DNA of 64,000 nt from Leptolyngbya sp. FACHB-261 (GTDB lineage: Bacteria; Cyanobacteriota; Cyanobacteriia; FACHB-261): positions 248,001-312,000 of the forward strand of contig NZ_JACJPL010000024.1 of NCBI RefSeq assembly GCF_014696065.1, given 5' to 3'. Shown here piece by piece: positions 3,959 through 42,944 of this stretch. The position numbers and the translations under genes are program-made. The notes beneath the pieces are model-generated. The model was given only the letters and a program-made list of their open reading frames with translations, did no database searches and had not been told where the DNA came from. Position 1 is the stretch's first letter. Every line of letters begins with the position of its first letter.

Positions 3959-6282
3959 GCAAGGCTGTCTGGCAACTGCCTACCCCCACCTCCCCACCAG
4001 AGTGGTTGGTATCGCTGACCGGTCATCGGGCAGCCCAACTGCTTTGGCGGCGGGGGCTGAGAACGCCCGAGCAAGTGCGCGGTTTCCTCAGCCCAGATGC
4101 CTATACTCCTAGCCCCGCGACAGCTCTTGGTGACGAGCTGGAACTGGCCGTTGAGCGGTTAGTGCAAGCTCATAGACGAGGCGAACGGGTTGCAATCTGG
4201 GGAGACTTTGATGCCGACGGGGTCACGGCAACCTCGGTGCTCTGGGATGGCCTCGGTCAGTTTTTTGCCAAGGACCAACAGCTTACTTACACCATTCCTA
4301 ACCGGCTCAAAGAATCGCACGGCTTGCATGCAGAGGGGCTCACCCAGCTTGCCGCCGCTGGCTACAGCTTGCTGGTCACCTGTGATACGGGTAGCAATAG
4401 CCCTGAGGAACTGAAGCTAGCATCAACGCTGGGATTAGACGTCATTGTCACTGACCACCACGCGCTACCGCCTGAGCGTCCACCAGTGGCAGCTTTTCTC
4501 AACCCACGCGCGCTAGAACCAGACCATCCCCTCGCCCATCTTTCCGGAGTAGCAGTCGCCTACAAGCTTGTCGAAGCGCTTTACTTAGCCCTGCCTGAGG
4601 TTCCCCGACGACCGCTGACTGAGTTGTTAGATTTGGTCGCCATTGGCCTGATTGCCGACTTGGTGAACTTGCAGGGCGATTGCCGCTATCTGGCTCAGCG
4701 TGGCATTGCTCGCTTGCAGCAGCAGACTAGCCCCAATCCCAGCCGCCCCGGTCTGGCCTTGCTACTGGAAGCCTGCCGTCGCGCCGGAGACCGACCCACC
4801 GATATTGCCTATGGTATTGGTCCGCGCATCAATGCCGTTAGCCGCATTCAGGGGGATGCTCGTTTTTGCGTGGAGCTGCTGACTAGTGACGATCCCCGCC
4901 GTTGTCGGGAACTAGTCCAGCAAACTGAGTTGGCTAACACCCGTCGCAAAGGTCTACAACATTTTCTGGCACTCCAGGTGCACGAGCGTCTGGCTAATCT
5001 GGACCTTTCCACTACAGGCGTGGTGTTGCTGGCAGAATCGGGCTGGCCCTTGGGCATTTTGGGGCTGGTTGCAGGACAAATCGCCCAGGAGATTCACCGA
5101 CCGACTCTGCTACTTAGCCTTGAGCCGGACGGTCGAGCCCGAGGCTCAGCGAGATCGGTAGCCGGGGTAGACCTCTACGCTCTATTTGCAGGACTTGAGC
5201 CGCTCTTAGAACGCTTTGGCGGACATCCCCTCGCCGTAGGACTGCAACTGCCTCAAGACAACATCCCGCTCTTACAGGCAGCCCTCAACCAGCGCTTACA
5301 ACCTGGTACATTGTCTGGGAACAAGCTACAAACCCCTCCATTGGCAATTGATCTGGAGCTGACTGTGGCAGAGTTGGCTGAGGATGGAGGCCGCAGTTTG
5401 TTTCAGGAACTGAAGCAGTTGGAACCCTGTGGTCAGGGCAACCCAGCCCCTAAACTCTTGATTCGTCGCTGCACCTTTGAAGGCACTACCAATCCGGGTC
5501 TACGCGACGCGAAGGGGCAAAAGGTGGGCTATGTCCAAACCCGCTTTACGCTACGCGATGCAACCGGCAGTTTCCCTGGGGTTTGGTGGGGCCATTATGT
5601 TCATGAGCTACCGCCTGGAGGTTGTGATGCGGTCGTTGAGCTGGAATATAACGCCAACGCCTGGAATTCCAGTAGCCGCAGTAGCGAGAAGCGCTATGAA
5701 GTCCGCTTGGTTGCTGTGCGTCCTGCCCAGATTGAAGCGCCAGCACCTGTTACCACTGAGCCAGGGTTGCCCACGATTTTAGATTGGCGAACTAGAGTAC
5801 CCGACCACCCCGAGCCAGCTCTGCGCTTAGCCCAGTGCCCTACCAGCTGGGAAGAACTGCGGGAACGGTTGCACCACGCTGCCCTATCCGGCTTGCCCTT
5901 AGCCCTGGTCTACCAGCTACCCATACCAGACCCTCAGCCTTGGCCCACGTTGGTCGGTCTTGCTAAATATCTGGCCCGCACCGGCAAACCAGCCAGCCTC
6001 GACCAGTTGCAGGCCCGACTGGGCATCGGCCCAACTTCCCTGGCCTTGGGTCTAAAGGCCTTGTCTGAAGCGGGTTTCAGCGTCACACAACAGCCCAACT
6101 CCAACCTTGTGGAAATTGGGGGACTAGAACCCAGAGAAAACCAACCCAAAGAATCGATTGCCCAATTTAGTGCGGCAGTCCGAGAAGAAGCATTTCAATA
6201 TCAGTATTTTTATCAGTTACCTCTGTCTGCTATTCAGGCCAAAATTCACGGGTGGAGCCCCATACCCATACAACAGGGTTAG
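3955..6282 (+). CDS. recJ: Single-stranded-DNA-specific exonuclease RecJ
   Basis: 5'-3' single-strand exonuclease of the DHH phosphoesterase superfamily, used in RecFOR recombination and mismatch repair. The motifs are in order: AIWGDFDADGVTA (motif I), LLVTCDTGSNS (motif II), VIVTDHHALP (the DHH motif), and a DHHA1-like C-terminal block with LLERFGGHPLAVGLQL. The 775-residue protein is longer than E. coli RecJ; the extra is a C-terminal extension (about residue 610 on) that looks like an added helix-rich domain, as often seen in cyanobacteria. GTG start, four-base overlap with the upstream hypothetical gene. Confidence 0.93.
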   Translation: MSKAVWQLPTPTSPPEWLVSLTGHRAAQLLWRRGLRTPEQVRGFLSPDAYTPSPATALGDELELAVERLVQAHRRGERVAIWGDFDADGVTATSVLWDGLGQFFAKDQQLTYTIPNRLKESHGLHAEGLTQLAAAGYSLLVTCDTGSNSPEELKLASTLGLDVIVTDHHALPPERPPVAAFLNPRALEPDHPLAHLSGVAVAYKLVEALYLALPEVPRRPLTELLDLVAIGLIADLVNLQGDCRYLAQRGIARLQQQTSPNPSRPGLALLLEACRRAGDRPTDIAYGIGPRINAVSRIQGDARFCVELLTSDDPRRCRELVQQTELANTRRKGLQHFLALQVHERLANLDLSTTGVVLLAESGWPLGILGLVAGQIAQEIHRPTLLLSLEPDGRARGSARSVAGVDLYALFAGLEPLLERFGGHPLAVGLQLPQDNIPLLQAALNQRLQPGTLSGNKLQTPPLAIDLELTVAELAEDGGRSLFQELKQLEPCGQGNPAPKLLIRRCTFEGTTNPGLRDAKGQKVGYVQTRFTLRDATGSFPGVWWGHYVHELPPGGCDAVVELEYNANAWNSSSRSSEKRYEVRLVAVRPAQIEAPAPVTTEPGLPTILDWRTRVPDHPEPALRLAQCPTSWEELRERLHHAALSGLPLALVYQLPIPDPQPWPTLVGLAKYLARTGKPASLDQLQARLGIGPTSLALGLKALSEAGFSVTQQPNSNLVEIGGLEPRENQPKESIAQFSAAVREEAFQYQYFYQLPLSAIQAKIHGWSPIPIQQG

Positions 6283-9534: not shown

Positions 9535-9737
9535 CTGCTGCATCTTGTCTTGAAGGTCCTCGATAGACCTACTTGAACCTAATCTTGAATCTAGCCTCAA
9601 TTTAAGGATGTAACTAAGGCTAATGTGGGAGCCCTTCACAGATATCCTGGGGGGAATAAACCGTGAGCAGATCTCACAGTTTTTTTGCTTTAATAGATAG
9701 GCTCACACTGCACTGTGTTCGATAGGGTTCACCCGAC

Positions 9738-40617: not shown

Positions 40618-40932
40618 CTATTTCTGGGGGTTCTGGATTGCCCGCAATAGGCTAGGGGAAAGGCTATAGAGCGGAATGATGGAGCCACGGCCTTCGGGGT
40701 AAACCATCACTTTGCTCACCAGGTTGCGGGCTTCGAGGCTTAGGAGCAAGGGGCTCAGGGCATGGGGTTCTAGGTCGCTGTCGCGGCTGAGCAGGCCGAG
40801 GGTGACTCGCGATTGGGCACCGCTGGGTTCGATGTAGTTGGCGATCACCAGCAAAATCAGTTTGAGCTGAGCGGGCAGCTTGAGACGACGGACTATGTAA
40901 TCCCACAGAGCAAGGCGGAGGCTAGGGCTCAT
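40618..40932 (-). CDS. Small winged-helix protein (HTH_36-like) next to the repeat array
   Basis: A 104-residue DNA-binding candidate. LKLILLVIANYIEPSG followed by LGLLSRDSDLEPHALSPLLL and SLEARNLVSKV fits the HTH_36/winged-helix pattern common in plasmid and phage replication initiators: helix, a short loop where homologues have a start-of-S motif, recognition helix, wing. The end is short (PEGRGSIIPLYSLS). ATG 40932 lacks a Shine-Dalgarno sequence; the region upstream on this strand is the phased repeat array (40951-41475), just as iterons precede a rep gene. Function is inferred; specific homologues are not known to me. Confidence 0.65.
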   Translation of the reverse strand: MSPSLRLALWDYIVRRLKLPAQLKLILLVIANYIEPSGAQSRVTLGLLSRDSDLEPHALSPLLLSLEARNLVSKVMVYPEGRGSIIPLYSLSPSLLRAIQNPQK

Positions 40933-40950
40933 GATTGGTAGGAAGGGTGA

Positions 40951-41475
40951 GAAAAATTACGTAGAGAAGTGAGATTAGATCTCGTTGAGAACGATCTAAA
41001 AGACTGGGGGATAGAAAAGATGATCTCGAAGACTATCTTTTCTATGTTTGAGAAGCAAAAATGCCTAGAGAAGTGAGATTAGATCTCGTTGAGAACGATC
41101 TAAAAGACTGGGGGATAGAAAAGATGGTCTCGAGGACTATCTTTTCTTGTTTGAGAAGCAAAAATGCCTAGAGAAGTGAGATTAGATCGTTTTTCGGAAG
41201 AAAAATTACGTAGAAAAGTGAGATTCAATCTCGTTGAGAACGATCTAATCTCACTTCGCACCGAAAATTTTCGTAGACGACTCCATCTTTTCTATGATCG
41301 AAACGATCTTTTCTATCCTGGGAAGAAAAATTACGTAGAGCGATTCATCTTTTGTAAGTCTGGAACGATCTAATCTCGGTTGGCCTCGAAAATTTTCGTA
41401 GACGGCTCTATCTTTTTCATGATTGGCAGCAGATTTTCCATCATTGGCACGAAAAATTACTGAGCCGAGTGAGAA
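40951..41475. repeat. Phased repeat array with mixed inverted modules
   Basis: Eight copies of a box GAAAAATTACGTAGA or variants (GAAAATTTTCGTAGACG, CAAAAATGCCTAGAG) start at 40951, 41056, 41159, 41200, 41263, 41325, 41388 and 41451. The last five are 62-63 bp apart; earlier gaps are 105, 103 and 41. 63 and 105 equal six and ten helical turns at 10.5 bp. Between boxes are shuffled palindromic modules: AGTGAGATTAGATC/AATCTCACTT, TCGTTGAGAACGA, and GATAGAAAAGAT/ATCTTTTCTATC (an 11-bp perfect stem at about 41011 and 41033). Two long units (40951-41158) are tandem near-identical. The array fills the whole gap between two minus-strand small genes. No long coding frame fits. Confidence 0.9.
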
Positions 41476-41495
41476 AAATTTTAGGGTCAGCAAGA

Positions 41496-41867
41496 TCATT
41501 GCGCTAACACTCCCTGCGTTGCTTCTTGCTGAGTGAGTTGGCGGTGTCGCTGTCGCCAGAGTTGTCGCCAGTAGTCGAGCACGTCTTCGCCGTACTGGAA
41601 GCGTTGCACTTCGGCTTTGATTACCCAACCGATCCATTCGAGCAGGCGCAGGTCGTTGCAACTCTGGATGGTGCGGGCGCAGGCTTCAACCCAAGCGGCG
41701 AATTTGCGATAGCTGATGAACTGGCCGCCCTGGTCGGCACGATGGACGAACAACACATGGGTCCAGTGTTCGATGCGGCAGATGCGGGATTTGGGGATGC
41801 CGAGAAAGCGGGCGACCTGGAGCAAAGAGATACAAAGCTGCGGCTGCAACACCTGGGTAAGGTGCAT
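41496..41867 (-). CDS. Small HTH-like hypothetical protein upstream of the array
   Basis: A 123-residue basic, Trp-rich protein. LCISLLQVARFLGIPKSRIC looks like a helix-turn-helix, followed by EHWTHVLFVHRADQGGQFIS and a helical C-terminus (VLDYWRQLWRQRHRQL). ATG 41867 is preceded by GGAG at eight bases; an ATG at 41894 has no such site. Its stop is 20 bp from the end of the repeat array, and its start abuts the run of hairpins at 41901-42063. I do not recognise the family. Context suggests it acts on the array or the RNA. Confidence 0.6.
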   Translation of the reverse strand: MHLTQVLQPQLCISLLQVARFLGIPKSRICRIEHWTHVLFVHRADQGGQFISYRKFAAWVEACARTIQSCNDLRLLEWIGWVIKAEVQRFQYGEDVLDYWRQLWRQRHRQLTQQEATQGVLAQ

Positions 41868-41900
41868 GGCAAGAACTCCAAAATTTGAGGGCATGGGAGC

Positions 41901-42063
41901 CTTTGACCCTATTCAGGGTCGAGAAAGGCAGGTGCTAAACTGCCCCCTAGCCGCCGGGTTGTAGATATCAACCCGACGGTTAGTTCCCCAGAGTTTGCAT
42001 AAGACCCTGGGGGACGCCTAGGGAACCAGTTGCCTGTGAGGAAAGTAACAGGGACTGGATTCC
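41901..42063. ncRNA. Candidate structured RNA: five consecutive hairpins
   Basis: H1 41905-41920 (GACCCT/AGGGTC, loop ATTC). H2 41927-41944 (GGCAG/CTGCC). H3 41947-41983, a 15-bp stem with one mismatch closed by a 7-base loop (CCGCCGGGTTG/CAACCCGACGG). H4 41985-42014 (TCCCCAG/CTGGGGGA with one bulge). H5 42022-42063, a composite stem (GGAA, CCAGT, CCTGT paired to ACAGG, ACTGG, TTCC) with loop GAGGAAAGTA. No open frame runs through it. It may be the leader of the small gene at 41867 (minus strand) or a separate RNA on either strand; the strand is undecided. It matches no RNA family that I recognise. Confidence 0.5.
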
Positions 42064-42944
42064 GGAGTCAAGGGGTCAACCCAAAAAAGATTTGTTGTAT
42101 CGTAACTAACCAGGCGGAGTAAGCACCGAAACCCAGGTTCAGCCTAGTTTCACTCAACTGAATTTTTTCCTACCCAGTCAGAAAAACGACAGCTATGCTG
42201 GATGGAAATCTCAGCTCAGGGTGAAACCTGGAGCGAGATTCAGTTTATCAAGTGATTAAGAGCAACGTTCCCCGGAGCCTTTCACTTGAGAGAACAGCAG
42301 GGAATTTCTGTGCCTATTGATGTCTACGCTGTTCATGTTTTTGGAGGATGGATAATCAGAGACGAGATGTAGTGGCAGAGCTGCTGAACACCAATATCCT
42401 TGGTACGGTATGAGTAGGAAGCGAATCGCATTTTAGGCTTGATCGAGCAGCTTTCCTGATCGTGGCACATCTTCAGAAAACATCAGTTTCTCGACATAGC
42501 AGAGATTTTGGTAATTAGCCCGTGAAGAGAGGTGCTTTCCCTAAAGAAAAGGCTGAACTTCCTAGTCACTACGGGCAAATGTTAAGATACAGATAGTTTG
42601 GTAAACCTAATCGCCAAAATCAGAGATTAGCTTAGAAAAGTCATACAAAATCGGGGAAAGGGTATTAGTTAGGCCGAAGATCACCCTAATAATGGGGTTG
42701 GGCAAATTCCCATCTCAGCATGGAGAGTTCCTTAAACTTATTTATTTAAGACTTTAGTGACAGTTGCGCAACGGGTAAAGTCATCAATAAATATTATCTT
42801 GCAGTTATTTATCCCCATCAATTATTTATTAATTTGGCCTTCTAGAAAGCAATTCAAGATAGCTCCTCAAGGAGATGATGGGTAACCGAACGATTTCTGG
42901 AATGTCTGCGTGCCAATCGCGTTACTCAATCTTGTCTTCATCGT
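42064..42944. other. About 880 bp without recognisable genes
   Basis: No open frame above about 60 codons with family features on either strand. Several weak inverted repeats: GCCCGT...ACGGGC bracketing 42519-42577, and GACTTTA...TAAAGTC bracketing a GTTGCGCAAC palindrome near 42750. Composition becomes AT-rich toward the right end. Could hold decayed genes, a second RNA, or a replication/maintenance region together with the array to the left. Confidence 0.5.

Follow-up and report, generated by a model that had tools for sequence, protein, structure and literature searches.

Locus-specific non-coding arrays of 21-bp period beside small orphan genes of cyanobacteria: candidate nucleoprotein control arrays

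Organization of the array locus

We analyzed a stretch of 64,000 nucleotides (the window, C24:248001-312000) from the 6.95-Mb assembly of the cyanobacterium Leptolyngbya sp. FACHB-261, focusing on a non-coding repeat array which occupies the entire intergenic gap between two small genes, here termed A and B. On the minus strand the order is B, array and A, and the features of the locus are as follows:

40618-40932, minus strand: gene A, coding for a winged-helix protein of 104 residues, with about 45 copies in the genome; the array lies 5' of it
40933-41495, no strand: non-coding array of 21-bp period, with about 26 units at spacings of 20-22 bp (mean 20.8 bp)
40951-41475, no strand: the part of the array with eight boxes of the GAAAAATTACGTAGA and GAAAATTTTCGTAGACG types, in a higher-order repeat of 104 bp on the left and 63 bp (3 x 21) on the right
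41496-41894, minus strand: gene B, coding for a protein of 132 residues, with 47 copies in the genome and a fold with no confident PDB match
41925-42050, minus strand: structured, covarying leader RNA outside Rfam, comprising a P2 hairpin, CTAACC, a P3 hairpin, GGCGGCTAG and TTTAGCACC
42044-42072, minus strand: putative promoter-like element TTGACT - 17 bp - TTACTT, directly 5' of the leader RNA, read from the alignment

A first-pass annotation of the window had described eight boxes in this gap, with two alternating box types and modules shuffled in direct and inverted forms, and all of these are real. The boxes start at 40951, 41055, 41158, 41200, 41263, 41325, 41388 and 41451; six of them (40951, 41055, 41158, 41200, 41325 and 41451) are directly matched by a single pattern, and the remaining two (41263 and 41388) are of the alternating GAAAATTTTCGTAGACG type. 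The successive distances between them are 104, 103, 42, 63, 62, 63 and 63 bp, each approximating a multiple of 20.8-21 bp; of the two early gaps previously given as 105 and 103 bp the latter is correct, whereas the former measures 104 bp and the 42-bp gap had been left unlisted. Self-comparison of the region returned 104, 125, 63, 62, 42, 41, 21, 103 and 83 bp as the top lags, and the comb score over multiples of about 21 bp was 36.6, as against 3.5 +/- 2.1 (maximum 11.9) in 2000 first-order Markov resamplings. When steps of 19-23 bp were allowed, 26 units could be fitted over the entire 563-bp gap, with steps of 20 bp (8 times), 21 bp (13 times) and 22 bp (4 times).

The boxes are each second, third or fifth unit of a finer array (63 = 3 x 21, 104 = 5 x 20.8), the unit of which spans two turns of DNA, as expected from the helical phasing that had been claimed. 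The 15-bp box previously regarded as the defining feature is real, but what is conserved is the 21-bp period and not the box. Nor is the box scattered, copies of it being found elsewhere in the genome only in one further array (C26:14171-14546) and as one decayed single copy (C26:44007). No open frame runs through the window array, and the dyad of its unit beats 1000 column permutations (p=0.001).

Searches of the assembly recovered 47 copies of B and about 45 of A, and at every locus with both genes B precedes A on the same strand. The AlphaFold model of A is a winged helix (predicted local distance difference test score, pLDDT, 87.8) with entries of the MarR, ArsR and TFE types as its nearest PDB neighbors, in keeping with the earlier description of the flanking genes as DNA-binding-like. 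That of B is a compact helix-strand protein (pLDDT 84.9), for which the PDB fold search gave no confident match; its conserved start is probably Met-10 (MHLTQVLQPQL). The TTGAC element upstream is kept in most close paralogues in the alignment. Neither protein belongs to a Pfam, NCBIfam, PHROG or PADLOC family above cut-off, and PADLOC and PHROGs gave nothing above background for the families tried; one A paralogue weakly resembles replication initiators (E 0.03-0.05). The relatives returned by our searches are none closer than class level: A was not found outside its own genome among 39 genomes searched (its own included), and B is present in 9 of the 194 genomes of a phylum sample, occurring without A in Symploca (in many copies), Microcoleus, Trichocoleus, Moorena, Lyngbya and others. 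A phage or plasmid origin of the two genes was rejected, as B has no relatives in the phage, plasmid and viral (IMG/VR) sets searched and A has none in IMG/VR.

Recurrence of the array at other A/B loci

Autocorrelation of all 56 B/A loci uncovered arrays of the 21-bp type (lags near 21, 42, 63, 84 and 105) near about 26 of them, this and the other array counts being approximate because the rule for the type and the periodicity thresholds were set by eye and vary slightly among scans (scanning window 147-210 bp, z 4.8-5.5). Of the 15 closest B-A pairs, 12 resemble the window in having the array in the B-A gap; in the other three the intergenic gap is just 48-70 bp and holds no array. A second B/A subfamily has B and A almost overlapping, and there the array precedes both the leader RNA and the genes on the 5' side. 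The unit sequence usually differs from locus to locus, with some array types shared by two or three loci, among them loci whose genes are different.

The other array of the window type (locus L020, 8165-8560, with 63 = 3 x 21 bp) is found in a type I-D-like locus of clustered regularly interspaced short palindromic repeats (CRISPR), which contains neither A nor B. It lies 3' of a gene for a WYL-domain regulator, is flanked on its other side by a gene for a 162-residue protein, and is situated about 2 kb from the CRISPR array and near a cas10d-like gene; the same locus has a match to the leader RNA at 9536-9661. We also observed a decayed duplicate of the 3' end of this WYL gene together with one array unit at about 5700-6150 of another locus (L021, C26:44007). 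An orphan family of 156-162 residues with the motif 'KVGDKTRxFI' adjoins 21-bp arrays at three loci (L253 1447-1917, L257 and L020 8886-9374).

A third orphan family with arrays strictly on its 5' side

Background samples of 400 kb each contained one non-coding 21-bp array in this genome and two in genome G236, i.e. approximately one per 270 kb overall; of these three arrays, each genome contributes one that stands immediately 5' of a gene of a third orphan family, X, of 115-145 residues ('MARxKRSSxVLEKAELR...AGGxRKSERKRP'). A targeted search found X in 27 of 145 genomes of the class, mostly in several copies each. A 21-bp-type array is present 5' of X in 41 of 50 X loci from 27 genomes and 3' in none (the 50 being 49 distinct loci, as one was fetched twice; the search alignment was built from six loci picked for having an array, partly among the 50, and the remaining loci were chosen by protein score). 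Most of these arrays start between -380 and -600, and those of L310, L319, L324 and L330 lie further upstream. At least 9 X loci with an array are found in the present genome.

In 40 fitted X-linked arrays, 306 of 340 unit steps (90%) are exactly 21 bp. Dyads beat column permutation in 19 of 40 arrays; in a second, largely separate set, that of the X arrays, they did so in 10 of 40 at p<0.05 (Fisher p=5e-9). At one locus (L068/L352) an RNA-A unit and a divergently oriented X gene share a single array.

A covarying leader RNA and family Y

The leader RNA is a conserved segment located upstream of B, or upstream of A at loci lacking B, and was recognized in 52 of the 56 B/A loci. RNAalifold predicted 18 pairs, 14 of which show compensatory double changes. 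Placed on the structure from this genome, 35 copies from other genomes kept 88% of pair cells, with a covariation of 0.523 as opposed to 0.02-0.13 with slid partners; the alignment of these copies was fitted to the model, which favors the model, though the sequences themselves are independent. A covariance model detected 73 copies in this genome and had matches in 39 of 194 genomes of the class, its own included, the weakest being near E = 0.01. As in Rfam leader RNAs and riboswitches, we observe a covarying multi-hairpin leader in many copies 5' of small genes; in contrast to them, the window shows no Rfam match at E<=1, ten other leader copies show no relevant match at E<=0.5, and the downstream genes code for small orphan proteins. 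The leaders of L051, L082, L086 and L091 have a second hairpin of the GGGGCAATTC...GAATTGCCCC type immediately before B starts, where it may cover the ribosome-binding site.

In other genomes the leader RNA is found 5' of small orphan genes, termed Y ('LVIGSRDGV..IHDLHGRGFAEVGAWSPLLPAP'), which follow it in several genomes (L261 2388-2663, L284-L287). Outside the A/B set, 40 RNA loci (14 from this genome and 26 from others) include 12 with a 21-bp array within 1.7 kb. Relatives of Y also occur on Nostocales plasmids, two of them directly 5' of a tyrosine recombinase gene and one near ParG and a replication gene; at these plasmid copies there was no credible detection of the leader RNA.

Comparison with known classes of repeats

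Coding repeats such as WD40 and pentapeptide repeats (periods of 126, 99 and 15 bp) were set aside as open frames, and a protein-coding heptad repeat was rejected, 22 regularly spaced arrays having 19 open frames against 24 expected and a codon-phase test at chance. Curvature from phased A-tracts was likewise rejected, there being no AA/TT signal at 10-11 bp. Short tandemly repeated repetitive (STRR) sequences are heptamer tandem repeats found between genes in filamentous cyanobacteria and share the intergenic location of our arrays; however, their 7-bp period yields lags of 21, 28 and 35 together, whereas here 28 and 35 are at background, with a mean self-match z below 0 at lags 7, 14, 28 and 35 and of 8.7 at 21. 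Arrays of the STRR kind (lags 21, 28, 35) do occur near B genes in Symploca, Microcoleus and Lyngbya (L102, L110, L118, L119, L124). CRISPR arrays have comparably regular repeat spacing, and one related array lies close to one, as described above; nevertheless, there is no constant repeat with unique spacers, the entire 21-bp unit is degenerate and conservation covers all its columns, in agreement with the earlier statement that this is not a CRISPR array.

Also among the closest precedents are two kinds of protein-binding arrays. The iteron arrays of plasmid origins are direct repeats about two helical turns apart beside the gene for a small winged-helix protein, and resemble our arrays in this spacing, in the adjacent gene and in the variation of the unit by locus. 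They differ in that here dozens are present per genome, no initiator family is involved, the units are not tied to the adjacent protein, and the array may be 5' of, between or 3' of genes. The centromere or operator arrays of the ParG/ParR type consist of phased units, either dyads or direct repeats, that small DNA-binding proteins recognize, and they lie close to the gene for the protein itself; they share this arrangement with the window array, but the known units are shorter than 21 bp and no ParA/ParM partner nucleoside triphosphatase (NTPase) lies by the window array.

The array as a candidate control element, and its rivals

The array and its period, its non-coding nature, its recurrent position by small orphan genes in many genomes and the enrichment of dyads lead us to favor, tentatively, the view that small orphan transcription units are controlled by a protein-binding (nucleoprotein) array phased at two helical turns. 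The units are placed on one helical face (mean 20.8 bp in the window, 90% at exactly 21 bp in the X arrays), and the two-turn spacing, dyads and 5' position would fit a platform for a multimeric DNA-binding protein. Such a protein would assemble on the non-coding array in cis, and with one dyad-like unit per two turns its dimers might lie on one DNA face, touching each other and possibly binding cooperatively. The array would be part of a small orphan transcription unit, with the order promoter, leader RNA, B, array and A in the window; other loci show the orders array-RNA-B-A or array-X. The assembly would most likely regulate the gene 3' of the array (here A), or else form a local nucleoprotein or insulating structure.

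Several observations weigh against this proposal. The window copy and L038 are 85% identical in A and 81% in B, and yet their arrays show no similarity. Mantel tests of array similarity against gene identity were not significant (A, r=0.12, p=0.17; B, r=0.20, p=0.07), and array types are common to loci with different genes (the window and L020; L058 and the X locus L356; L041/L051 and the X locus L355). Further, fewer than half of the arrays have a significant dyad, and conservation along the unit distinguishes almost no core from spacer (only at lag 1, z=3), a near-uniformity that sits more comfortably with neutral turnover. Cognate binding by A or B was rejected on the Mantel results, and as array sequence is independent of A/B identity, binding by the 104-residue protein suggested in the first-pass annotation is not indicated. 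This decoupling of sequence from neighbor argues against a simple cognate repressor or an iteron scheme, leaving a shared trans factor, a loose reader of spacing and dyads, or neutral turnover. Since array sequences are replaced although A and B remain similar, and one array type can stand beside different genes, the candidate binder is probably either a trans-acting factor common to the loci or a protein that responds to spacing and dyad form more than to the exact sequence. The earlier idea of a binding or regulatory array for a multimeric protein is partly right: the helical phasing holds, and most close paralogues have an array in the corresponding position, whereas an origin or a partition site is not supported and binding by A is not indicated.

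The main rival is a functionless, neutral minisatellite, in which slippage and unequal exchange generate and replace tandem repeats where gaps next to rapidly evolving orphan genes tolerate them. It accounts readily for the replacement of array sequence between 85%-identical paralogues, for the nearly uniform conservation of the unit and for the three close B-A pairs with no array between the genes. We nonetheless consider it rather doubtful: the adherence of dozens of loci from 27 genomes to a single period (21), the strict placement 5' of X and the near absence of arrays elsewhere in the genome samples are hard for it to explain, and dyad enrichment also counts against it.

A function at the level of RNA, with the array transcribed in the B-A or X message as a spacer, processing substrate or binding ladder acting with the leader RNA, appears unlikely. 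The window array does lie between co-directional genes and 3' of a structured leader RNA, the sense strand has more C than G in 29 of 40 arrays, and many dyads could fold as short hairpins. However, the genes themselves show an equal excess of C, the array of L068/L352 would have to be the sense strand of its RNA-A unit and of its divergent X gene at once, which is impossible, and spacing slips of 1 bp with a two-turn period fit DNA better.

We regard as quite improbable that a dispersed recombination or mobility element, spread by some machinery of its own, has the array and leader RNA as its cis components and A, B, X and Y as accessory genes. The copy numbers (47 B, about 45 A and 73 leader RNAs), the sharp homology borders between the closest copies and the tyrosine recombinases directly downstream of plasmid relatives of Y would suit such an element; however, the borders of five close pairs showed no terminal inverted repeats, target duplications or transposase, the plasmid copies of Y have no credible leader RNA, and the expansion is old, because most copies share only 40-85% protein identity.

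Finally, the iteron replication origin or partition site proposed by the first-pass annotation is highly improbable despite the iteron-like unit length, the locus-specific units, the winged helix of A and its one weakly initiator-like paralogue, because such arrays number in the dozens in one assembly (about 26 B/A loci and at least 9 X loci, many on large contigs, in place of one origin and one cognate unit per replicon), unit types cross genes and are not cognate to the neighbor, B has no relatives in the plasmid, phage and viral sets nor A in the viral set, and the array operon consists of A and B alone, which match no initiator or ParA-type family and neither of which is an NTPase of the ParA, ParM or TubZ kinds; no Rep, ParA or actin-like gene adjoins the window array.

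Other features of the window

A dispersed repeat at 38010-38130 matches many other loci of the genome at 75-92% identity. The segment 43416-45453 carries type I restriction-modification genes, with a short HsdS-like gene (196 residues) followed by an HsdM gene.

Significance

Repeat arrays bound by DNA-binding proteins are usually recognized through a shared motif; in the present case it is the repeat length that stays constant while the sequence varies, which is why the class, with dozens of loci in this genome and representatives in several cyanobacterial families, would be missed by motif searches. It is apparently undescribed, a brief literature search that did not cover subscription papers having found no published description of such arrays. 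To it are added a covarying leader RNA outside Rfam and the orphan families A, B, X and Y, which have no database family. It is possible, though we put this forward guardedly, that these loci form a widespread cyanobacterial class set by repeat length and not by sequence, in which locus-specific 21-bp arrays are paired with small orphan proteins of the X, A/B and further families, in many cases together with the new leader RNA, and would be kept under continual sequence replacement for a function that reads the two-turn spacing. The loci make it possible to test directly whether the phasing of repeats is by itself open to selection.
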